DNA from: a virus
IMG/VR virus record: IMGVR_UViG_3300037882_001255
Span: 1 to 20,005 of that record
Length of the DNA: 20,005 nt
Direction: 5' to 3' (one strand)
Shown: positions 7,656-19,920 of the stretch, one piece after another
Numbering within the stretch: the first letter of the stretch is position 1
Layout of the letters: each line of letters starts with the position of its first letter
The notes under the pieces: model-generated
Database searches by the model: none
Told to the model about the DNA's origin: nothing
What the model saw: only the letters and a program-made list of their open reading frames with translations
Program-made: the position numbers and the translations under genes

Positions 7656-8008
7656 TGTTACTGTTCGAATTTCTTGATTCAGAAGATGGTATGATGGATT
7701 CTCTCCGTCAAATCGTTATGGACTATCTCACTCCCTTGGTAGCCCGCCGAGTTGATACTATTTCTATTCAGGAAATCGAACACGCATTGCGTGATTATAA
7801 AAGTGGCTTGGTCATTGATCGCGGATTAATCATGGATTTGTTGAATCCTGATAATATCAAGTTGGTTAAAAAGATTCAAGGTGATACAATTTATTTAAAT
7901 ATCATCGCGGCTATGAATACGGCCTCAACGGCTGAAGATAAAGAACGTGATGCGGATAAAATATCTGACAAGGCCACTAAACAAGCTCGTAAGGAGATTG
8001 AGAAATGA
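7655..8008 (+). CDS. Unknown phage protein (117 aa)
   Basis: Unrecognised. The start overlaps the previous TAA by one base and the TGA overlaps the next ATG (ATGA), so it is tightly coupled between the acidic protein and the neck protein. The N-terminal half reads as a small mixed fold (DYLTPLVARRVDTISIQEIEHAL, then a short winged-helix-like IDRGLIMDLLNPDNIKLVKK). The C-terminal 30 residues are a charged helix (EDKERDADKISDKATKQ). Conserved placement beside gp13 suggests a head or neck assembly role, by context only. Confidence 0.7.
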   Translation: MLLFEFLDSEDGMMDSLRQIVMDYLTPLVARRVDTISIQEIEHALRDYKSGLVIDRGLIMDLLNPDNIKLVKKIQGDTIYLNIIAAMNTASTAEDKERDADKISDKATKQARKEIEK

Positions 8009-8775
8009 CCAATCCTCGTGCCAATCGTGATGAAATGATTGAACAGATACAGCTTCGCCTTGGTGCAGGAATGGTGGATGTTGAACTTGATCCTCAACAT
8101 TACGAAGCTGCTGTTAATATTTCTATGCGCTTTTACAGACAACGTTCAACCAATGCTCAGATAGAAGCATTTATCTTTATGGAAGTTCAGAGAGAAGTTT
8201 CTACCTATACTCTCCCTAAAGAAATTCAAGAAGTTCGAGACGTTCTTCGTAACTCTACCAATGGCCAAGCGGGAACTTATTTTGAACCATTTAGTGCCAA
8301 CTTTGTCAACAATATCTATATGCTTCAGAATCCCGGCGGATCGGGACTTGGTGGTAGTGGCACAGGAGCGCTCGCAAGCTACGATTTTGCCGCTTCTTTG
8401 CAGAAATTAACAGGTAGGATGTTCGGTCGTGAGGTAAAGTTCACTTGGGATTCCTCTACGAAAAAAATCACGTTCCAGCGCAAATTTAACGCAAATGAGG
8501 AAATAGGTCTTCATGTCTATATGGCACGAGATGAAGAATCATTGTTGGAAGACTATTACGCCCGCCCTTGGATCGAGGATATGGCTACCGCACAGTGCAA
8601 AATGATGCTTGGTCAAGGTAGAGGTAAATTCCAAAGCTATGCTGGTCCACAAGGTGGTATCACTCTCAATGGTGCAGAACTGAAACAGGAAGCACAGGCA
8701 GAGATGGATAAACTAATGGAAGACCTCAAGAATGGCATAGATGGTTCGATGGGTTTCGGGCTTGTTATCGGGTAG
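8005..8775 (+). CDS. 13: Neck protein, T4 gp13-like (head completion)
   Basis: gp13 and gp14 form the neck that closes the filled head and accepts the tail in T4-like phages. This 256-residue protein follows the gp13 plan of marine and other T4-like phages. It starts with RDEMIEQIQLRLGAGMVDVELDPQ (an N-terminal helix, then the V-x-V-ELD-x-x-Q segment), then Y-x-x-A-V-x-ISM-FYRQRS. A YTLPKEIQEVRDVLR block comes next. The end is GQGRGKFQSYAGPQGGITLNG followed by QEAQAEMDKLMEDL, which matches the usual 'KF.G...PGGITLNG...EA..E...LE.E' ending. A Gly-rich loop (GGSGLGGSGTGAL) in the middle is variable in the family. T4 gp13 is somewhat longer (about 309 aa). The start overlaps the previous stop and has GGAG upstream. 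Confidence 0.85.
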   Translation: MTNPRANRDEMIEQIQLRLGAGMVDVELDPQHYEAAVNISMRFYRQRSTNAQIEAFIFMEVQREVSTYTLPKEIQEVRDVLRNSTNGQAGTYFEPFSANFVNNIYMLQNPGGSGLGGSGTGALASYDFAASLQKLTGRMFGREVKFTWDSSTKKITFQRKFNANEEIGLHVYMARDEESLLEDYYARPWIEDMATAQCKMMLGQGRGKFQSYAGPQGGITLNGAELKQEAQAEMDKLMEDLKNGIDGSMGFGLVIG

Positions 8776-13467: not shown

Positions 13468-13768
13468 TCTTATTATGGAGAATATGAAAAACGCATATGT
13501 CTTAGACAACTATGCAGTTTTTCAGGATTTGAGTAGTAGGTTGGGAGGATTGCACGCAGGATCATCAGAGGAAGATATTCAATCTATCTTTTACGATATT
13601 GGAAAAACTCAGTTTGAAAATATGCGTGATTGGTTTCAAATATGTTACTTTGTCTTTCTTGGGAAGTGGGAAGGCCCACGATTAGGTAAGATATTCAAGC
13701 TAATGGGAATTGAGAAGTTCAACGATGAACTCATGTATAGAATCGCATTAGTTGGGAAGATGGTATGA
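13460..13768 (+). CDS. Unknown protein (102 aa)
   Basis: Unrecognised. ATG 13460 (MTDLIMENMKNAY) overlaps the phosphoribosyltransferase end by 8 nt; a second ATG at 13475 has TTATGGAG near it and is an alternative start. The stop overlaps the next ATG (ATGA 13765-13768). The sequence is helical with many aromatic residues (MRDWFQICYFVFLGKWEGP) and no clear membrane segment. It is probably co-expressed with the HAD-phosphoribosyltransferase pair. Confidence 0.65.
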   Translation: MTDLIMENMKNAYVLDNYAVFQDLSSRLGGLHAGSSEEDIQSIFYDIGKTQFENMRDWFQICYFVFLGKWEGPRLGKIFKLMGIEKFNDELMYRIALVGKMV

Positions 13769-14181
13769 TCAAACATGCTATCGATCCAGATGGAACCCAA
13801 TCATGGTATCAAGAGGGCAACCTTCATCGCCTTGATGGCCCTGCATACATAGGATCAGACGGAAGCCAATCATGGTATCTTGAGGGCAGGCTTCATCGCC
13901 TTGATGGCCCTGCATACATAGGATCAGATGGCACCCAACATTGGTATCAAGAGGGCAAGTTCCATCGCTTTGATGGCCCTGCATGGATTCGCCCAGATGG
14001 AACAATGGAAATATACGTATGGGGAGAAATTCCTCGTATTTGGAACAACCACATAGTGACAAGTGATCAACTTGATTTGGAATTCCCATCTGCCCAACAT
14101 CTGCCCGAATATACGAATTGCTGTGTTTGGTGGGTTGAAGATTTGACAGAACGACAACTCGCTATCCTGAAATATAGTTGA
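13765..14181 (+). CDS. MORN-like repeat protein (138 aa)
   Basis: The protein begins with three tandem 23-residue repeats of the form DGTQSWYQEG-x-LHRLDGPA-(Y/W)-I-G-S plus a degenerate fourth (residues about 8-90). These are W-Y-x-x-G-x-x-HR-x-DGPA units of the MORN-repeat-variant kind seen in phages, giant viruses and some bacteria, thought to form a beta sheet used for binding. The C-terminal 50 residues are not repeated (DQLDLEFPSAQHLP, CCVWWVEDLTERQLAIL). It is last in the HAD unit, and the strong promoter of the next unit starts 10 nt after its stop. Function unknown. Confidence 0.75.
   Translation: MIKHAIDPDGTQSWYQEGNLHRLDGPAYIGSDGSQSWYLEGRLHRLDGPAYIGSDGTQHWYQEGKFHRFDGPAWIRPDGTMEIYVWGEIPRIWNNHIVTSDQLDLEFPSAQHLPEYTNCCVWWVEDLTERQLAILKYS
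13778..13985 (+). repeat. Three tandem 69-bp repeats inside the MORN-like gene
   Basis: A 69-bp unit encoding 23 residues is repeated three times. Copies 1 and 2 share long identical stretches, for example the run around 13826-13860 and again at 13895-13929. This points to recent tandem duplication and possible copy-number variation. Confidence 0.8.
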
Positions 14182-14190
14182 AAAAAAATG

Positions 14191-14221
14191 TTGACAAAGT
14201 TTTGACCAACGAGTATAAATA
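14191..14221 (+). promoter_or_regulatory. Strong promoter: consensus sigma70 elements fused to a T4-late octamer
   Basis: -35 TTGACA (14191-14196, perfect), 17-bp spacer, -10 TATAAA (14214-14219). The -10 is also the start of TATAAATA (14214-14221), the exact T4 late consensus. The promoter could thus serve both host-type and late phage polymerase. Predicted +1 is about 14226-14227, at the A of ATG 14227. Confidence 0.8.
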
Positions 14222-14226
14222 AGTCT

Positions 14227-14280
14227 ATGAACACGAACACAACCTCAATTACAACCATTTGGTCGTCCACCTTCGGGTGA
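14227..14280 (+). CDS. Putative 17-residue leader peptide MNTNTTSITTIWSSTFG
   Basis: The ORF starts at the predicted +1 of the strong promoter (leaderless) and ends at TGA 14278. Of 17 codons, 6 are Thr, 3 Ser, 2 Ile and 1 Trp. Those are exactly the four amino acids of the nine uninterrupted tRNA genes downstream. The Thr codons used (ACG, ACA, ACC) match the anticodons of the three tRNA-Thr genes (CGT, TGT, GGT). TCG and TCA match the two tRNA-Ser genes, ATT matches tRNA-Ile(GAT) and TGG matches tRNA-Trp. The composition resembles the E. coli thr operon leader. Its coding region overlaps the first arm of the following RNA structure. Translation is not shown, and there is no Shine-Dalgarno site, so the call is tentative. 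Confidence 0.5.
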   Translation: MNTNTTSITTIWSSTFG

Positions 14281-14376
14281 AAGACGGGTTGTGTTCTTGC
14301 ACCCGTCACTGAGACGGGTAAGTTCCAGTTTAGCTTACAATTTATCCCGTCTCAAAAACCCTCTCAGGGGTTCTTT
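14235..14376 (+). ncRNA. Attenuator-like structured leader with mutually exclusive hairpins
   Basis: Segment 1 GAACACAACC (14235-14244, inside the leader ORF) pairs with GGTTGTGTTC (14287-14296). GACGGGT occurs at 14283-14289 and 14313-14319. Its complement occurs as ACCCGTC (14301-14307) and CCCGTCTC (14346-14353). Two exclusive folds follow. Fold A has 14235/14287 plus the 7-bp hairpin 14301-14319. Fold B has 14283/14301 plus the stem 14311-14318/14346-14353. A UUCG-capped hairpin CACC-TTCG-GGTG (14268-14279) covers the leader stop codon. A terminator-like hairpin follows. This is the layout of an amino-acid attenuator; the function is inferred. Confidence 0.6.
14357..14376 (+). terminator. 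Terminator-like hairpin ending the leader
   Basis: AACCCT and GGGGTT pair over 6 bp (one G-U) around CTCA, preceded by AAA and followed by CTTT. This resembles short phage intrinsic terminators. The U run is interrupted by C, so it may be a conditional or partial terminator. Confidence 0.55.
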
Positions 14377-14530
14377 GACATGGGATCGTGCGCTGGGACG
14401 CACTCCCTCTGGCAAGTAAATTACAGAGTTGCGTGTAACACATGCTACTCTGCTTGTATCTATGTTGCGTGTATGGTAAAATTAAACCATGCACGCAACG
14501 GAGATCAAGAAAATATCAACAAGGTGGAGA
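14377..14530 (+). other. Non-coding stretch with two hairpins and a weak promoter
   Basis: Holds a small hairpin GTGCG-CTGGGA-CGCAC (14389-14404). It also has a strong imperfect stem whose left arm starts near 14463 (TTGCGTG...ATGGT) and whose right arm is ACCAT...CACGCAA (14486-14499), 12 bp plus one G-U. A weak promoter-like pair (TTGTAT, 17 bp, TAAAAT near 14476) lies inside it. The in-frame ATG 14489 is buried in the stem, so the following gene is thought to start at GTG 14531. Confidence 0.45.
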
Positions 14531-14701
14531 GTGCGCCTCAGCATTACTGCTTTGGATTTCCATGATTGGAAAGAAATTCATCAATGGATTGGTGAAAATC
14601 TTCAAGCCCAGCGAGGTAAGGATTATTATATCTGCTCAACGGGATTTGTTGATTTTGCTATAGAAGAAGATGCAATATTATTTTTTATGAGGTACGTATG
14701 A
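14531..14701 (+). CDS. Tiny accessory protein of the 'EEDA-x-x-F-x-x-RY' family (56 aa)
   Basis: GTG 14531 is chosen, with AAGGTGGAGA directly upstream; the frame is open to ATG 14489, which sits in a stable hairpin. The protein begins MRLSITALDFHDW (GTG read as Met) and ends VDFAIEEDAILFFMRYV. That ending is shared in pattern with the small proteins at 15624-15857, 16522-16746 and 16730-16960, suggesting paralogues with an alpha/beta fold. The stop overlaps the release-factor start (ATGA 14698-14701), so the two are probably translationally coupled. Function unknown. Confidence 0.6.
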   Translation: MRLSITALDFHDWKEIHQWIGENLQAQRGKDYYICSTGFVDFAIEEDAILFFMRYV

Positions 14702-15342
14702 AGATTGAAATTAGGCCCGGTCAGGGCGGCGAAGACTCCAAGTTGTTTATGAATGATTTGGCTAACGTGTATGAGAAATATTTGACTCAAAAAGGTTGAC
14801 TGCACCAAACGGTTCGGTCAGATTCCATCATAGTTATTGAAACTGACCGTATTGATGCATTCGTTAATGAGGTTGGTTGTCATAGAATACAAAGAGTTCC
14901 ACCCACTGAAAAAAGAGGAAGAGTTCATACATCCACTGTTAAGGTGTCTGTTATCAATGAAACGAAGGTTCGTAAATTACAGATACGAGATAGTGATTTT
15001 GAGGTAAGATTCCATAGAGGCACGGGTAAAGGTGGCCAACGTAAAAATAAAGTCGCAACTTGTTGTGTAGTTAAACATATCCCAAGTGGGATGACGCAAA
15101 AAGCTGATGGGCGCTCTCGGATAGATAATGAAGAGGAAGCAAAGAGAAACCTTATTGAACGCCTTGAACTTGAGTTCAATTCCGCCCATAGTATGGTTAT
15201 TAATGAGGTTCGTTGCAATCAGCTTCAAGAAGATAGGAATAGACTATATCGGTTTCAAAATGATGAAGTAATAGATTATAGATCAGGAAAAACCATGTCC
15301 TTGAAGCATTTTATGCGTGGACAATTGGAAAAATTGTGGTAA
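14698..15342 (+). CDS. prfA: RF1-type peptide chain release factor with an in-frame UGA at codon 34
   Basis: Release factors hydrolyse peptidyl-tRNA at stop codons. Translating 14698-15342 in one frame gives a 214-residue protein if TGA 14797-14799 is read as an amino acid. Before it: MKIEIRPGQGGEDSKLFMND (matches RF1 'EVRAGTGGDEAALFAGD') and YEKYLTQKG. After it: GCHRIQRVPPTEKRGRVHTS, with P-x-T (PPT) as in RF1, which reads UAA/UAG, not the SPF of RF2. GTGKGGQRKNKV (about 15023-15058) carries the catalytic GGQ. The end DRNRLYRFQNDEVIDYRSG matches the RF1 C-terminus. The UGA falls where E. coli RF1 has Trp (ARRWRVE). Its context is UGA-C, a leaky one. The protein lacks RF1 domain 1, so it is short. 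Readthrough, a recent nonsense mutation, or a sequencing error could each explain the TGA; a frameshift cannot. Confidence 0.82.
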
Positions 15343-15352
15343 AGAGTTAAAT

Positions 15353-15428
15353 GCGCGCGTAGCACAATTGGTTAGTGCATGCGATTGATAATCGTAAGAC
15401 CAAGGTTCGAATCCTTGCGCGCGCACCA
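15353..15428 (+). tRNA. tRNA-Ile(GAT), copy 1
   Basis: Complete cloverleaf with encoded CCA: acceptor GCGCGCG/CGCGCGC, D-stem GCAC/GTGC, anticodon stem TGCGA/TCGTA with loop TTGATAA, T-stem CAAGG/CCTTG, loop TTCGAAT. Anticodon GAT reads ATC/ATT. It lies 10 nt after the release-factor stop. Confidence 0.95.
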
Positions 15429-15439
15429 TTGGAATAATT

Positions 15440-15527
15440 GGAATTGTGGGTGAGTGGTTTATACCAGCATCTTCGAAAGTTGCCGAACCTAAGGGTTCCG
15501 TGGGTTCAAATCCCACCAATTCCGCCA
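15440..15527 (+). tRNA. tRNA-Ser(CGA)
   Basis: Class II tRNA with a long variable arm (about 15486-15500, GAACC/GGTTC pairing). Acceptor GGAATTG/CAATTCC, D-stem GGT/ACC, anticodon stem GCATC/GTTGC (one T-T mismatch) with loop TTCGAAA, T-stem TGGG/CCCA, encoded GCCA end. Reads TCG. Confidence 0.93.
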
Positions 15528-15536
15528 AACATATAC

Positions 15537-15610
15537 ATAGGCGTGGTGAAATGGTATCATTTCGGTCTCCAAAACCGCAGTTCCGAGTTCAAATCTCGGC
15601 GTCTATGCCA
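15537..15610 (+). tRNA. tRNA-Trp(CCA), copy 1, with a U11-A24 pair
   Basis: Acceptor ATAGGCG/CGTCTAT, discriminator G, encoded CCA, anticodon loop CTCCAAA, T-stem CCGAG/CTCGG. The D-stem GTGA/TCAT gives U11-A24. In E. coli tRNA-Trp the G24A change (the Hirsh suppressor) creates the same U11-A24 pair and lets a CCA anticodon read UGA. The top anticodon-stem pair (27-43) is a T-C mismatch. It lies about 200 nt downstream of a release factor interrupted by UGA. Confidence 0.93.
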
Positions 15611-16315: not shown

Positions 16316-16525
16316 TTATGGTGTTCCAAGAGCAGGAGAAAGAGTAATGCTCCAAATATGAGCATTTAGGGAATATGGATCATCAAATTCATACTCGGCT
16401 TTAATTAGCTCTTCGGCTTCATTCTCGCTCTCGGCCCAAACAATCGCAGTTCTTTTTTCCTCATATGACTTATTCATATAGGGTGAAAAATGAATGGTGA
16501 AATTGGCGAGATACAACGTTTTCAT
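16316..16525 (-). CDS. Unknown small protein (69 aa)
   Basis: Last of three leftward genes set between rightward tRNAs. ATG 16525 (MKTLYLANFTIHFSP) overlaps the upstream stop (ATGA), and its stop codon abuts the CCA end of tRNA-Ile copy 2. The middle (TAIVWAESENEAEELIKAEYEF) has the strand-acidic-helix plan of the other tiny proteins here and resembles small phage proteins with an 'A-x-x-E-x-E-A-x-x-x-I-x-x' motif. Function unknown. Confidence 0.6.
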   Translation of the reverse strand: MKTLYLANFTIHFSPYMNKSYEEKRTAIVWAESENEAEELIKAEYEFDDPYSLNAHIWSITLSPALGTP

Positions 16526-16746
16526 ATATTTTCCCAATAACGAAGTTTAAAAATCGTTATATCGTCATAGTTACGGAACGTCAACTGATAATATTGAGAA
16601 TCCATTTTTAAATCTGGAATATAGCCAAATGTATCTCTGGACCATGAAATAAATTCATCATCATATCGGACAACGTATTCCAGCGCCCTTGGTCTCTTGA
16701 CCAACAGGATGGTTTTTGTAATTTTCAAGTCAACTATATATGTCAT
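16522..16746 (-). CDS. Tiny accessory protein (74 aa)
   Basis: Begins MTYIVDLKITKTILLVKRP and ends QLTFRNYDDITIFKLRYWENI. The C-terminus has the same plan as its upstream neighbour (FLSEEDALMFRLKYDIYS), suggesting paralogues. It overlaps both neighbours by a few bases (16730-16746 and ATGA at 16522-16525). No function is known. Confidence 0.6.
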   Translation of the reverse strand: MTYIVDLKITKTILLVKRPRALEYVVRYDDEFISWSRDTFGYIPDLKMDSQYYQLTFRNYDDITIFKLRYWENI

Positions 16747-16960
16747 ATTTTAACCTGAACATCAAAGCGTCTTCTTCCGATAAGAATATTATATTTGTGG
16801 TTAAACGTGTATGATGACGATTTTCAGATGTAAATGTGAGACGTGGTTCATACCCATAATATTCCGTACACCAGATTTTAACAATTTCGCGTAAACGATA
16901 ACCTCTTAACAATTTGTTTACTGATATGCGATCATCAGGACCAATTTTAATAATACACAT
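16730..16960 (-). CDS. Tiny accessory protein (76 aa)
   Basis: First of the three leftward genes. ATG 16960 has AAGGA 8 nt upstream, although that site lies in the complement of the start of tRNA-Ser(TGA). Its C-terminus TTNIIFLSEEDALMFRLKYD matches that of the 97-residue protein at 9089-9382 in pattern (TTNIIVCCNHDDAQLIELAFD). A Tyr/Trp-rich middle (VKIWCTEYYGYEP) is shared in style with 16522-16746. Likely one of a dispersed phage family; function unknown. Confidence 0.6.
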   Translation of the reverse strand: MCIIKIGPDDRISVNKLLRGYRLREIVKIWCTEYYGYEPRLTFTSENRHHTRLTTNIIFLSEEDALMFRLKYDIYS

Positions 16961-16974
16961 ACGACAAATCCTTA

Positions 16975-17068
16975 GGAGGATGTATCAGACAGGCGCGCCG
17001 CCCTCGTTTTGAAAACGAGTGATGTCCACGAGAGTGGCATGGGGTTCGAGACCACCCATCCTCCTCCA
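16975..17068 (+). tRNA. tRNA-Ser(TGA), unusual architecture
   Basis: Anticodon stem CTCGT/ACGAG with loop TTTGAAA, long variable arm ATG(t)CCAC-GAGA-GTGGCAT, encoded CCA. Oddities: the acceptor can pair over 8 bp (GGAGGATG/CATCCTCC), the T-stem GGGG/CC(A)CC needs a bulged A, and no standard D-stem is visible. The discriminator is T instead of the usual G. Reads TCA. Confidence 0.8.
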
Positions 17069-17482: not shown

Positions 17483-17511
17483 TTGACAGCAATACCCATA
17501 CTCTATATATT
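17483..17511 (+). promoter_or_regulatory. Sigma70-type promoter for tRNA-Thr(TGT), tRNA-Thr(GGT) and thrS
   Basis: -35 TTGACA (17483-17488, perfect), 17-bp spacer, -10 TATATT (17506-17511). Predicted +1 about 17518, three bases before the tRNA 5' end. The -35 box is part of a hairpin TTGCTGT/ACAGCAA (17466-17492) that could also act as a weak stop for the upstream tRNA-Thr(CGT). Confidence 0.7.
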
Positions 17512-17520
17512 ACATATATT

Positions 17521-17596
17521 GCCCCGTAAGCATTGCTGGCGATGCGCCGGATTTGTAACCCGGAGACAGGCGGTTCGATTCCGTCACGGGGCACCA
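17521..17596 (+). tRNA. tRNA-Thr(TGT)
   Basis: Acceptor GCCCCGT/ACGGGGC, D-stem GCAT/ATGC, anticodon stem CCGGA/CCCGG (one A-C) with loop TTTGTAA, T-stem GGCGG/CCGTC, encoded ACCA. Reads ACA. Confidence 0.94.
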
Positions 17597-17625
17597 TTAT
17601 TTGTAAGAAACGCTATTCAATTTTG

Positions 17626-17700
17626 GGTCTTGTAGTTCAAGTGGTATAACACCGCTTTGGTAAAGCGGAGTCCCGAGTTCAATCCTCGGCAGGACCACCA
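17626..17700 (+). tRNA. tRNA-Thr(GGT)
   Basis: Acceptor GGTCTTG/CAGGACC, perfect anticodon stem CCGCT/AGCGG with loop TTGGTAA, T-stem CCGAG/CTCGG, encoded ACCA. Reads ACC/ACT. The three tRNA-Thr genes together cover all four Thr codons, and the synthetase gene follows 32 nt later. Confidence 0.94.
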
Positions 17701-17732
17701 CATTAAAATAAATTAACCTATAGGAGGAAGCA

Positions 17733-18886
17733 ATGTCACTACGTTTAACAATGATCATCGGGTAATAGGCCCACAATTAGATTTATTTCATATAGACGAA
17801 AATGCCGCTGGAAGTGTATTCTGGCACAACAATGGATATATTCTTTACCGTATCGTAGAAGAATATATACGTTCTGAACTTAGACAGAACGATTATGAGG
17901 AAGTCCGTTCTCCTCAACTATTCCGATCAGATTTATGGGAACAATCAGGTCACATGGATCACTATGCGGACAATATGTATCAGGTAGACGAGTTTCTACT
18001 CAAACCGATGAATTGTCCCGCCCACGCTTTAATTTTCAAGAAAAAGGTAAATTCTTACCGTGATCTTCCGAGAAGAATTTCCGAATTTGGATGCTGCCAT
18101 AGAAATGAACCATCGGGTTCTCTTCATGGTCTTATGCGCGTTCGTCAGTTTGTTCAAGACGATGCCCATATCTTTTGCGAAGAACATCAAATTGAAAGTG
18201 AAGTTAGATCGTTTTGTCAAATGCTCAAACGTGGGTATAGCCGTTTCGGATTTGATGATGTCAAAGTAGCATTATCTCTACGACCCCGAGATAGAGCAGG
18301 AGATGATCTCTTATGGGATAAGAGTGAGAAAGCATTGGAAAAATGCCTCATTGATTCTAATATCCCTTACGATATACAAGAAGGTGAAGGAGCATTCTAT
18401 GGCCCCAAGTTAGAATTTTCTCTTAAAGATTCTCAAGATCGTTGGTGGCAATGCGGGACGCTACAGCTTGATTTTGTGTTACCATCAAGACTTGGTGTTA
18501 GCTACATGGATCGAAATGGATCAAAAGCTCATCCCGTTATGATCCATAGAGCCATACTGGGTTCGCTGGAAAGGTTTATCGCAATTCTCTTAGAACATTA
18601 TGGCAAAGATTTACCTGATTGGTTATGTCCAGTTGAAATTGCTCTCCTACCAGTAAACGAGAATTTTATTGAATTCTGTCAAGAGATAAAAAGATCATCC
18701 AGTAGACGAATAGAAATCTACCCTGATGAATCTATTTCCAAACGTGTTAGAAATGGCAGCAAGCGTGGGATACCATATGTGATCGTGGTAGGAGAAAAGG
18801 AACAAGCAAGCGGTCAGATGAACGTCAGAAAGAAAGGTTCTGAATACATTTTGATAGATGGTATAGATGGCATTGATGATTTGTGA
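17733..18886 (+). CDS. thrS: Threonyl-tRNA synthetase core, start out of frame with the body (-1 shift needed)
   Basis: ThrRS charges tRNA-Thr. The body frame reads DHRVIGPQLDLFHID (E. coli 'DHRKIGKQLDLYHM') from 17753 to 18886, giving the class II catalytic core and the anticodon-binding domain. Visible: KPMNCPAH, motif 2 FGCCHRNEPSGSLHGLMRVR, DDAHIFC, VMIHRAILGSLERF (motif 3). The three zinc ligands (Cys of MNCP, His of DDAH, His of MIH) are kept. The TGS and editing domains are absent, so mischarged Ser-tRNA-Thr would not be cleared by this protein. The only well-placed start, ATG 17733 after AGGAGG, reads MSLRLTMIIG then TAA; the body lies in the -1 frame, with no ATG before 17954, which would remove motif 1. 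A -1 slip at T-TTA (17744-17747) would join them. Alternatives are a non-ATG start (ACG 17741), a sequence error, or a decayed gene. Confidence 0.85.
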
Positions 18887-19763: not shown

Positions 19764-19920
19764 GCGCCTGTAGCTCAATGGTAGAGCCGTCCGCTCATTC
19801 CCTACGATTGTAGGAAATACAAATGATGATTAGTCATCATTTGTTTATTTTTACACGTGATTTGGTTCACGTATAAAAATAACGGATAGGTTGGGGGTTC
19901 GAATCCCTCCGGGCGCACCA
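19764..19920 (+). tRNA. tRNA (CAT; Met or Ile2) interrupted by an 82-nt structured insert in the anticodon loop
   Basis: All arms are canonical: acceptor GCGCCTG/CGGGCGC, D-stem GCTC/GAGC, anticodon stem GTCCG (19789-19793)/CGGAT (19883-19887), T-stem GGGGG/CCCTC, encoded ACCA. The loop region holds 89 nt in place of 7. Removing 82 nt (for example 19799-19880) restores CTCATAA, the usual loop of CAT tRNAs. The exact ends are ambiguous by an AT shared at both junctions. Whether the isoacceptor is elongator Met or lysidine-modified Ile2 cannot be decided. The stem lacks the three G-C pairs of an initiator. Confidence 0.85.
19799..19880 (+). other. 82-nt intron-like insert made of three hairpins
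   Basis: Hairpin 1: CCTAC-GATT-GTAGG (19801-19814). Hairpin 2: a perfect 11-bp stem with loop TTAG (19819-19844). Hairpin 3: 15 pairs plus one C-A mismatch, loop TTTGGT (19846-19881, extending by T845-A882). Hairpin 3 ends next to the 3' strand of the anticodon stem. It is too short for a group I intron and lacks the terminal G. No bulge-helix-bulge is evident. Confidence 0.7.

Follow-up and report, generated by a model that had tools for sequence, protein, structure and literature searches.

The autoregulation of RF2 by frameshifting is the textbook case, in which a release-factor gene (bacterial prfB) is broken early by an in-frame stop codon and needs recoding, here a +1 frameshift. An early in-frame UGA after which the same frame continues has been imagined for RF2 but was found in no sequenced RF2 gene, and a UAG counterpart in RF1 was not known (Atkins et al., 2016; PMC5009743). 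Furthermore, a large survey from 2025 detected no programmed frameshifts in prfA (PMC12421855), and a giant amoeba virus release factor is cited in PMC5009743 as being expressed via readthrough and frameshifting. The window analyzed here (the whole stretch of DNA, a complete virus record of 20,005 bases) contained a plus-strand gene (14698..15342) that was predicted to encode an RF1-like release factor when translation continues past an in-frame UGA at codon 34 (14797..14799), a position occupied by tryptophan in RF1. Similar to prfB, this gene is broken early by a stop codon that would need recoding, and some of its bacterial relatives contained CTT-TGA or CTT-TAG sites of the prfB type. On the other hand, the phage factor is of the RF1 type (PxT), and its frame is unchanged after the UGA, which corresponds to readthrough rather than frameshifting. 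The giant amoeba virus factor, as far as the citation describes it, is likewise a viral class-I factor that needs stop-codon readthrough, but it belongs to a eukaryotic virus and is presumably of the eukaryotic type, whereas the phage factor is of the bacterial RF1 type. A readthrough gate in an RF1-type gene is therefore seemingly new, although our literature search covered open-access papers and an earlier description may exist elsewhere.

The predicted product harbored the Pfam RF-1 domain, the RF1 PxT motif (VPPTE), and the GGQ motif, all of which are shared with full-length bacterial RF1 (prfA), whereas the gene began in domain 2 and lacked the N-terminal domain. It matched the RF1 (prfA) model with an E-value of 1e-38, yet reached at most 145 bits against cut-offs of 400 and more. 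PrfH resembles it in the RF-1 domain, GGQ, and a length of ~200 aa; however, assignment to PrfH was rejected at 31 bits against a cut-off of 166. The factor was thus far below the cut-offs of both families, from which the in-frame UGA also distinguishes it. When eight such release-factor genes were aligned and searched against IMG/VR, 328 viral relatives were obtained, of which the best 80 (L248-L327) were examined. All of these best 80 contained an in-frame UGA near the codon-34 site, located at the identical codon in 76, at the adjacent codon in one, and ~9 codons downstream, accompanied by a UAG, in three. The codon just before the UGA site encoded glycine in 76/80, the PxT-type and GGQ motifs were intact in 80/80, and no further stop occurred downstream of the site in 13,362 codons of the same 80 genes. 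The search patterns excluded the UGA site, so that versions carrying TGG would have turned up. UGA terminated 39 of the 137 long open frames in the contigs of the homologues and was the commonest stop in the window (19/30 listed genes), indicating that it is a normal stop codon in these phages. Phage-wide recoding of UGA as Trp was rejected on the same grounds.

Ordinary cellular RF1 genes from GTDB contigs mostly contained TGG in the column of the UGA, and Mycoplasma RF1, in which UGA encodes Trp, served as a control with TGA in that column. The in-frame UGA of the phage gene is probably read through as tryptophan because ordinary RF1 has this residue there. Short RF1-like homologues with an in-frame UGA near the site were also identified in Thalassospira, Gemmobacter, Jiella, Variovorax, and several MAGs. 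Six other bacterial RF1-like homologues shifted frame near the site, five of them by +1 at CTT-TGA or CTT-TAG (L354, L375, L382, L385, and L415). A quick tree, based on a short search and on sequences that were mostly metagenomic, united the ordinary RF1 genes in a single well-supported group that was distinct from the recoded forms, and the recoding label required two changes on this tree compared with 21 in shuffles. The release factor of the window formed a long branch.

Synthesis of the full-length factor would require readthrough of the UGA at the conserved site, and the supply of the factor should then rise whenever host RF2 terminates at UGA slowly in comparison with near-cognate Trp decoding. 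Such a gate would tie the supply of the factor to the state of termination. The PxT motif predicts reading of UAA and UAG, in which case the gate would sense host RF2 and not the factor itself. It is likely that these genes represent a class of release factor that has not been described before, is of the RF1 type, lacks the N-terminal domain, is widespread in large phages, and is gated by programmed UGA readthrough at one fixed codon (bacterial relatives carry either a UGA or a CTT-TGA/CTT-TAG frameshift close to this codon), so that a phage would make its own termination factor according to the termination state of its host. This predicted gate matters more than the RNA that precedes it in the window, given that plain in-frame readthrough would apply to every one of the best 80 viral homologues and the frameshift version to bacterial relatives, and it raises the question of why large phages bring their own conditional termination factor.

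The release-factor gene was preceded by a sigma70-like promoter on the plus strand (TTGACA-N17-TATAAA, 14191..14221) that matched 11 of 12 consensus positions, with the -35 element at 14191-14196, a spacer of 17 nt, the -10 element at 14214-14219, and a predicted +1 at ~14226-14227. This agrees with the sequence-only reading, which had placed the start of transcription at the ATG at 14227. The -10 element doubles as TATAAATA, a T4-like late motif that was present as a single copy in the window (chance expectation, ~1.6). Downstream of the leader followed, in order, a 70-aa ORF (14489..14701, plus strand) with a weak start and a UGA stop that shares an ATGA with the start codon of the release-factor gene, then the RF1-like factor, and directly after it tRNA-Ile(GAU), tRNA-Ser(CGA), and tRNA-Trp(CCA) (15353..15610, plus strand). 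The release factor would accordingly be the first recognizable gene of an operon that continues with these three tRNAs, and transcripts from the promoter at 14191 would begin with a highly structured 5' leader (14227 to ~14505).

Folding of 14225-14385 gave a z-score of -4.57, and the 150-nt windows that begin at 14401, 14451, and 14351 gave -8.2, -7.3, and -6.8, respectively, the first of which was the lowest of the whole window; the region 14225-14520 overall reached -9.07. The folded leader is therefore a series of hairpins that extends from 14227 to ~14505. A structured RNA had been proposed for 14227-14376, and this part does fold well, but the leader does not end at 14376 and its strongest structure lies farther downstream. 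Inverted repeats and folding both identified a hairpin at 14424..14452 and a long hairpin at 14458..14505 (plus strand, arms of 20 nt, 85% complementary) that buries the ATG at 14489. The region 14428-14505 also contained a second pair of duplicated arms (GTTGCGTGTA, two copies) that allows alternative hairpins, one of which buries the same ATG. A match of the leader to mir-2574 in Rfam was dismissed as a chance match to a hairpin.

Within the upstream part of the leader, five segments on the plus strand compete for partners. Segment 1 (GAACACAACC, 14235..14244) pairs with 14287-14296 in segment 2 (GACGGGT plus GGTTGTGTTC, 14283..14296), which can alternatively pair with segment 3 (ACCCGTC, 14301..14307); segment 3 can also pair with segment 4 (TGAGACGGGT, 14310..14319), and segment 4 with segment 5 (CCCGTCTCA, 14346..14354). 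Four mutually exclusive helices were found (14235-44:14287-96, 14283-89:14301-07, 14301-07:14313-19, and 14310-18:14346-54), which bears out the exclusive GACGGGT/ACCCGTC folds that had been noticed from the letters. When 14227-14386 was folded with a ribosome mask at each position, helices 1:2 and 3:4 formed in the absence of a ribosome or with a ribosome beyond codon 10, and a ribosome on codons 1-10 led to formation of 2:3 and mostly of 4:5 too. None of 200 shuffles matched this rearrangement. In the full RNA folded to 14505, the rearrangement was unexceptional (8/60 shuffles reached the same size), and beyond 14390 the ribosome-dependent change was small. The hairpin at 14357..14372 (plus strand), described as terminator-like in the sequence-only reading, formed with a probability of 0.85-0.96 in every ribosome state except one (0.47 at codon 9) and hence independently of the switch; its tail (CTTTGACA) is a poor U-tract, its d'Aubenton-type terminator score was -54, and a terminator scan did not call it.

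At the 5' end of the leader lies a 17-codon ORF, MNTNTTSITTIWSSTFG (14227..14280, plus strand, UGA stop), whose ATG is at about +1. As had been claimed, 12 of its 17 codons encode Thr, Ser, Ile, or Trp. This bias had a probability of 7e-5 (at least 12 of 16 codons, mononucleotide shuffles of the ORF's own bases) or 3e-6 (against the amino-acid use of the phage itself), at least six Thr codons had a probability of 3e-3 in shuffles of the same composition, and dinucleotide shuffling of the 20-kb window (60 replicates) produced no comparable ORF. However, the ORF was picked in the sequence-only reading with the tRNA genes already in view, and the real surprise of the bias is thus smaller, though not nil. 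Nine uninterrupted tRNA genes for the same four amino acids were indeed present, eight from the tRNA scan (Ile, Ser(CGA), Trp, Trp, Ile, and three Thr) and a Ser(UGA) at 16975-17064 that was caught by neither ARAGORN nor the Rfam gathering threshold and whose anticodon was read by eye. The claim that the codons of the ORF are those read by these tRNAs held for 11 codons and not for 12, since TCC is read by neither the CGA nor the UGA anticodon. The Ser(UGA)-like tRNA has a long variable arm and matched the tRNA-Sec model weakly (28.7 bits; gathering threshold, 47).

In attenuators of the thr, trp, and pheST type, a short ORF enriched in regulatory codons precedes mutually exclusive helices, and the phage leader resembles them in both respects, in its codon enrichment as well as in exclusive folds set by ribosome position. 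A leader-peptide attenuator, in which stalling at Thr, Ser, Ile, or Trp codons would free segment 2, allow 2:3 and 4:5 to form, and change transcription of the operon, is consistent with the codon bias, with the ATG at +1 of a promoter matching 11 of 12 positions, and with a switch larger than in any of the 200 shuffles. No Shine-Dalgarno sequence was detected before the ATG at 14227 (-2.5 kcal/mol, whereas many genes reach roughly -5 to -10), so that any translation of the ORF must be leaderless. Leaderless attenuator peptides are known, such as trpL of S. meliloti, which begins directly at the 5' end of its transcript (PMC7298713), and the phage ORF resembles it in having its ATG at the transcript start. 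An extension of the ORF by UGA readthrough (112 aa) had no PHROGs match. The phage leader differs from these attenuators in that it lacks an intrinsic terminator limited to one of the two states, in that its downstream genes do not fit the dominant codon Thr, and in that no conservation was detected. A switch without an output does not qualify the leader as an attenuator. The leader had also been proposed to control entry into the whole tRNA and translation island. This proposal was not clearly supported; tRNAs for Ile, Ser, and Trp do follow the leader, but the Thr functions form a separate unit: tRNA-Thr(UGU), tRNA-Thr(GGU), and a threonyl-tRNA synthetase core (17521..18886, plus strand) follow an independent promoter (TTGACA-N17-TATATT, 17483..17511, plus strand, 11/12 match), and three small minus-strand ORFs (16316..16960) stand between the leader operon and the Ser(UGA)/Thr/ThrRS unit. 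With its dominant codon served by a separately promoted unit, the leader is not obviously guarding Thr functions. Overall, the codon bias, the promoter/ATG geometry, and the refolding were supported, and an output, translation, the operon logic, and conservation were not, which makes an attenuator unlikely. An attenuator here would mean that the phage senses tRNA charging, which the present data do not support.

The very low folding energy of the entire RNA, the promoter at the 5' end, and the tRNA genes nearby would also suit a stand-alone, stable structured phage RNA of ~280 nt, in a setting like that of the T4 stable RNAs or of ROOL and GOLLD, for which the ORF would be irrelevant. However, ROOL and GOLLD are much larger, the leader matched no T-box, ROOL, or GOLLD covariance model at gathering or relaxed thresholds and had no Rfam match, a good 3' terminator was lacking, and no homolog was found. 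A separate stable RNA thus appears rather doubtful, and less likely than a structured 5' leader. The duplication of the arms AGACGGGT and GTTGCGTGTA could instead reflect a cluster of inverted repeats with a role in DNA (in replication or recombination, or as the remnant of a mobile element), in which RNA folding would be incidental. This explanation is highly improbable, considering that the repeats are located exactly between the promoter and the operon and that the longest hairpin had no copy in 2.9 million viral contigs. We favor, with a probability of roughly 0.5, a structured 5' leader with an incidental ORF, in an operon whose clearer translational control would be the in-frame UGA of the release-factor gene. 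An A/C-rich strand that pairs with GGUUGUGUUC tends to read Thr and Asn in one frame, and the 17-codon ORF is therefore more probably a by-product of this pairing strand than a functional leader peptide. The structured leader may act as a processing, stability, or start-site-masking element, as its last hairpin buries the sole ATG of the 70-aa ORF. Nevertheless, the refolding upon ribosome masking and the bias of the ORF exceed the needs of a passive leader. That the leader adds a second, decoding-sensitive layer to the release-factor gate is, in our estimate, very unlikely.

Searches for relatives of the leader by blastn against phages at an E-value of 10 returned only weak short matches, mostly in staphylococcal phages, and short-word blastn and nhmmer against the collected related loci returned nothing credible; the exact pattern of the longest hairpin was likewise absent from the viral contigs. 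No ORF comparable in Thr, Ser, Ile, and Trp content was found in the 80 regions upstream of release-factor genes of other phages, among which only L283 was somewhat rich in these residues, and Thr-rich small ORFs before ThrRS genes of other phages were scattered frames only. The motif TATAAATA-N5-ATG was observed ahead of the UGA-containing release factor in L288, L291, L296, and L297 (2747-2977), where the motif and a strongly folded RNA are flanked by a sigma70-like gene (read by eye) on one side and the release factor on the other. In L288, the RNA behind the motif had a z-score of -4.2 and a perfect stem of 15 bp. The ORF behind the motif in these four contigs (MNKTALKPK...) showed no bias toward the four amino acids. 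Homology of these leaders to that of the window is not claimed, as the alignment past the promoter was unconvincing and the motif was not clearly enriched genome-wide.

Other features of the window were observed in passing. The ThrRS core (17733-18886) had no in-frame start, and a Shine-Dalgarno sequence with an ATG at 17733 was one frame off the conserved NNDHRVIGPQ start, whereas most phage ThrRS relatives contained an in-frame start a few codons upstream; this mismatch may reflect an indel, an assembly error, or recoding. The best ThrRS relative was 53% identical. A tenth tRNA (19764-19917, CAU by its loop) had an anticodon loop split by an insert of ~80 nt that is made of hairpins and is below the usual size of group I introns. 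The region 13765-14181 encoded a protein of repeated WYQEG..HRLDGPAYI-type units without a Pfam or PHROGs match. The nearest contig found, which is 7.7 kb long and stops short of the leader region, contained a neck protein with 62% identity. The window also encoded a DnaB-type helicase (90-1067), and its neck-protein homolog (8005-8775) had relatives in jumbo phages such as PA5oct, Phosso, and Atu_ph07 (~40-43% identity).
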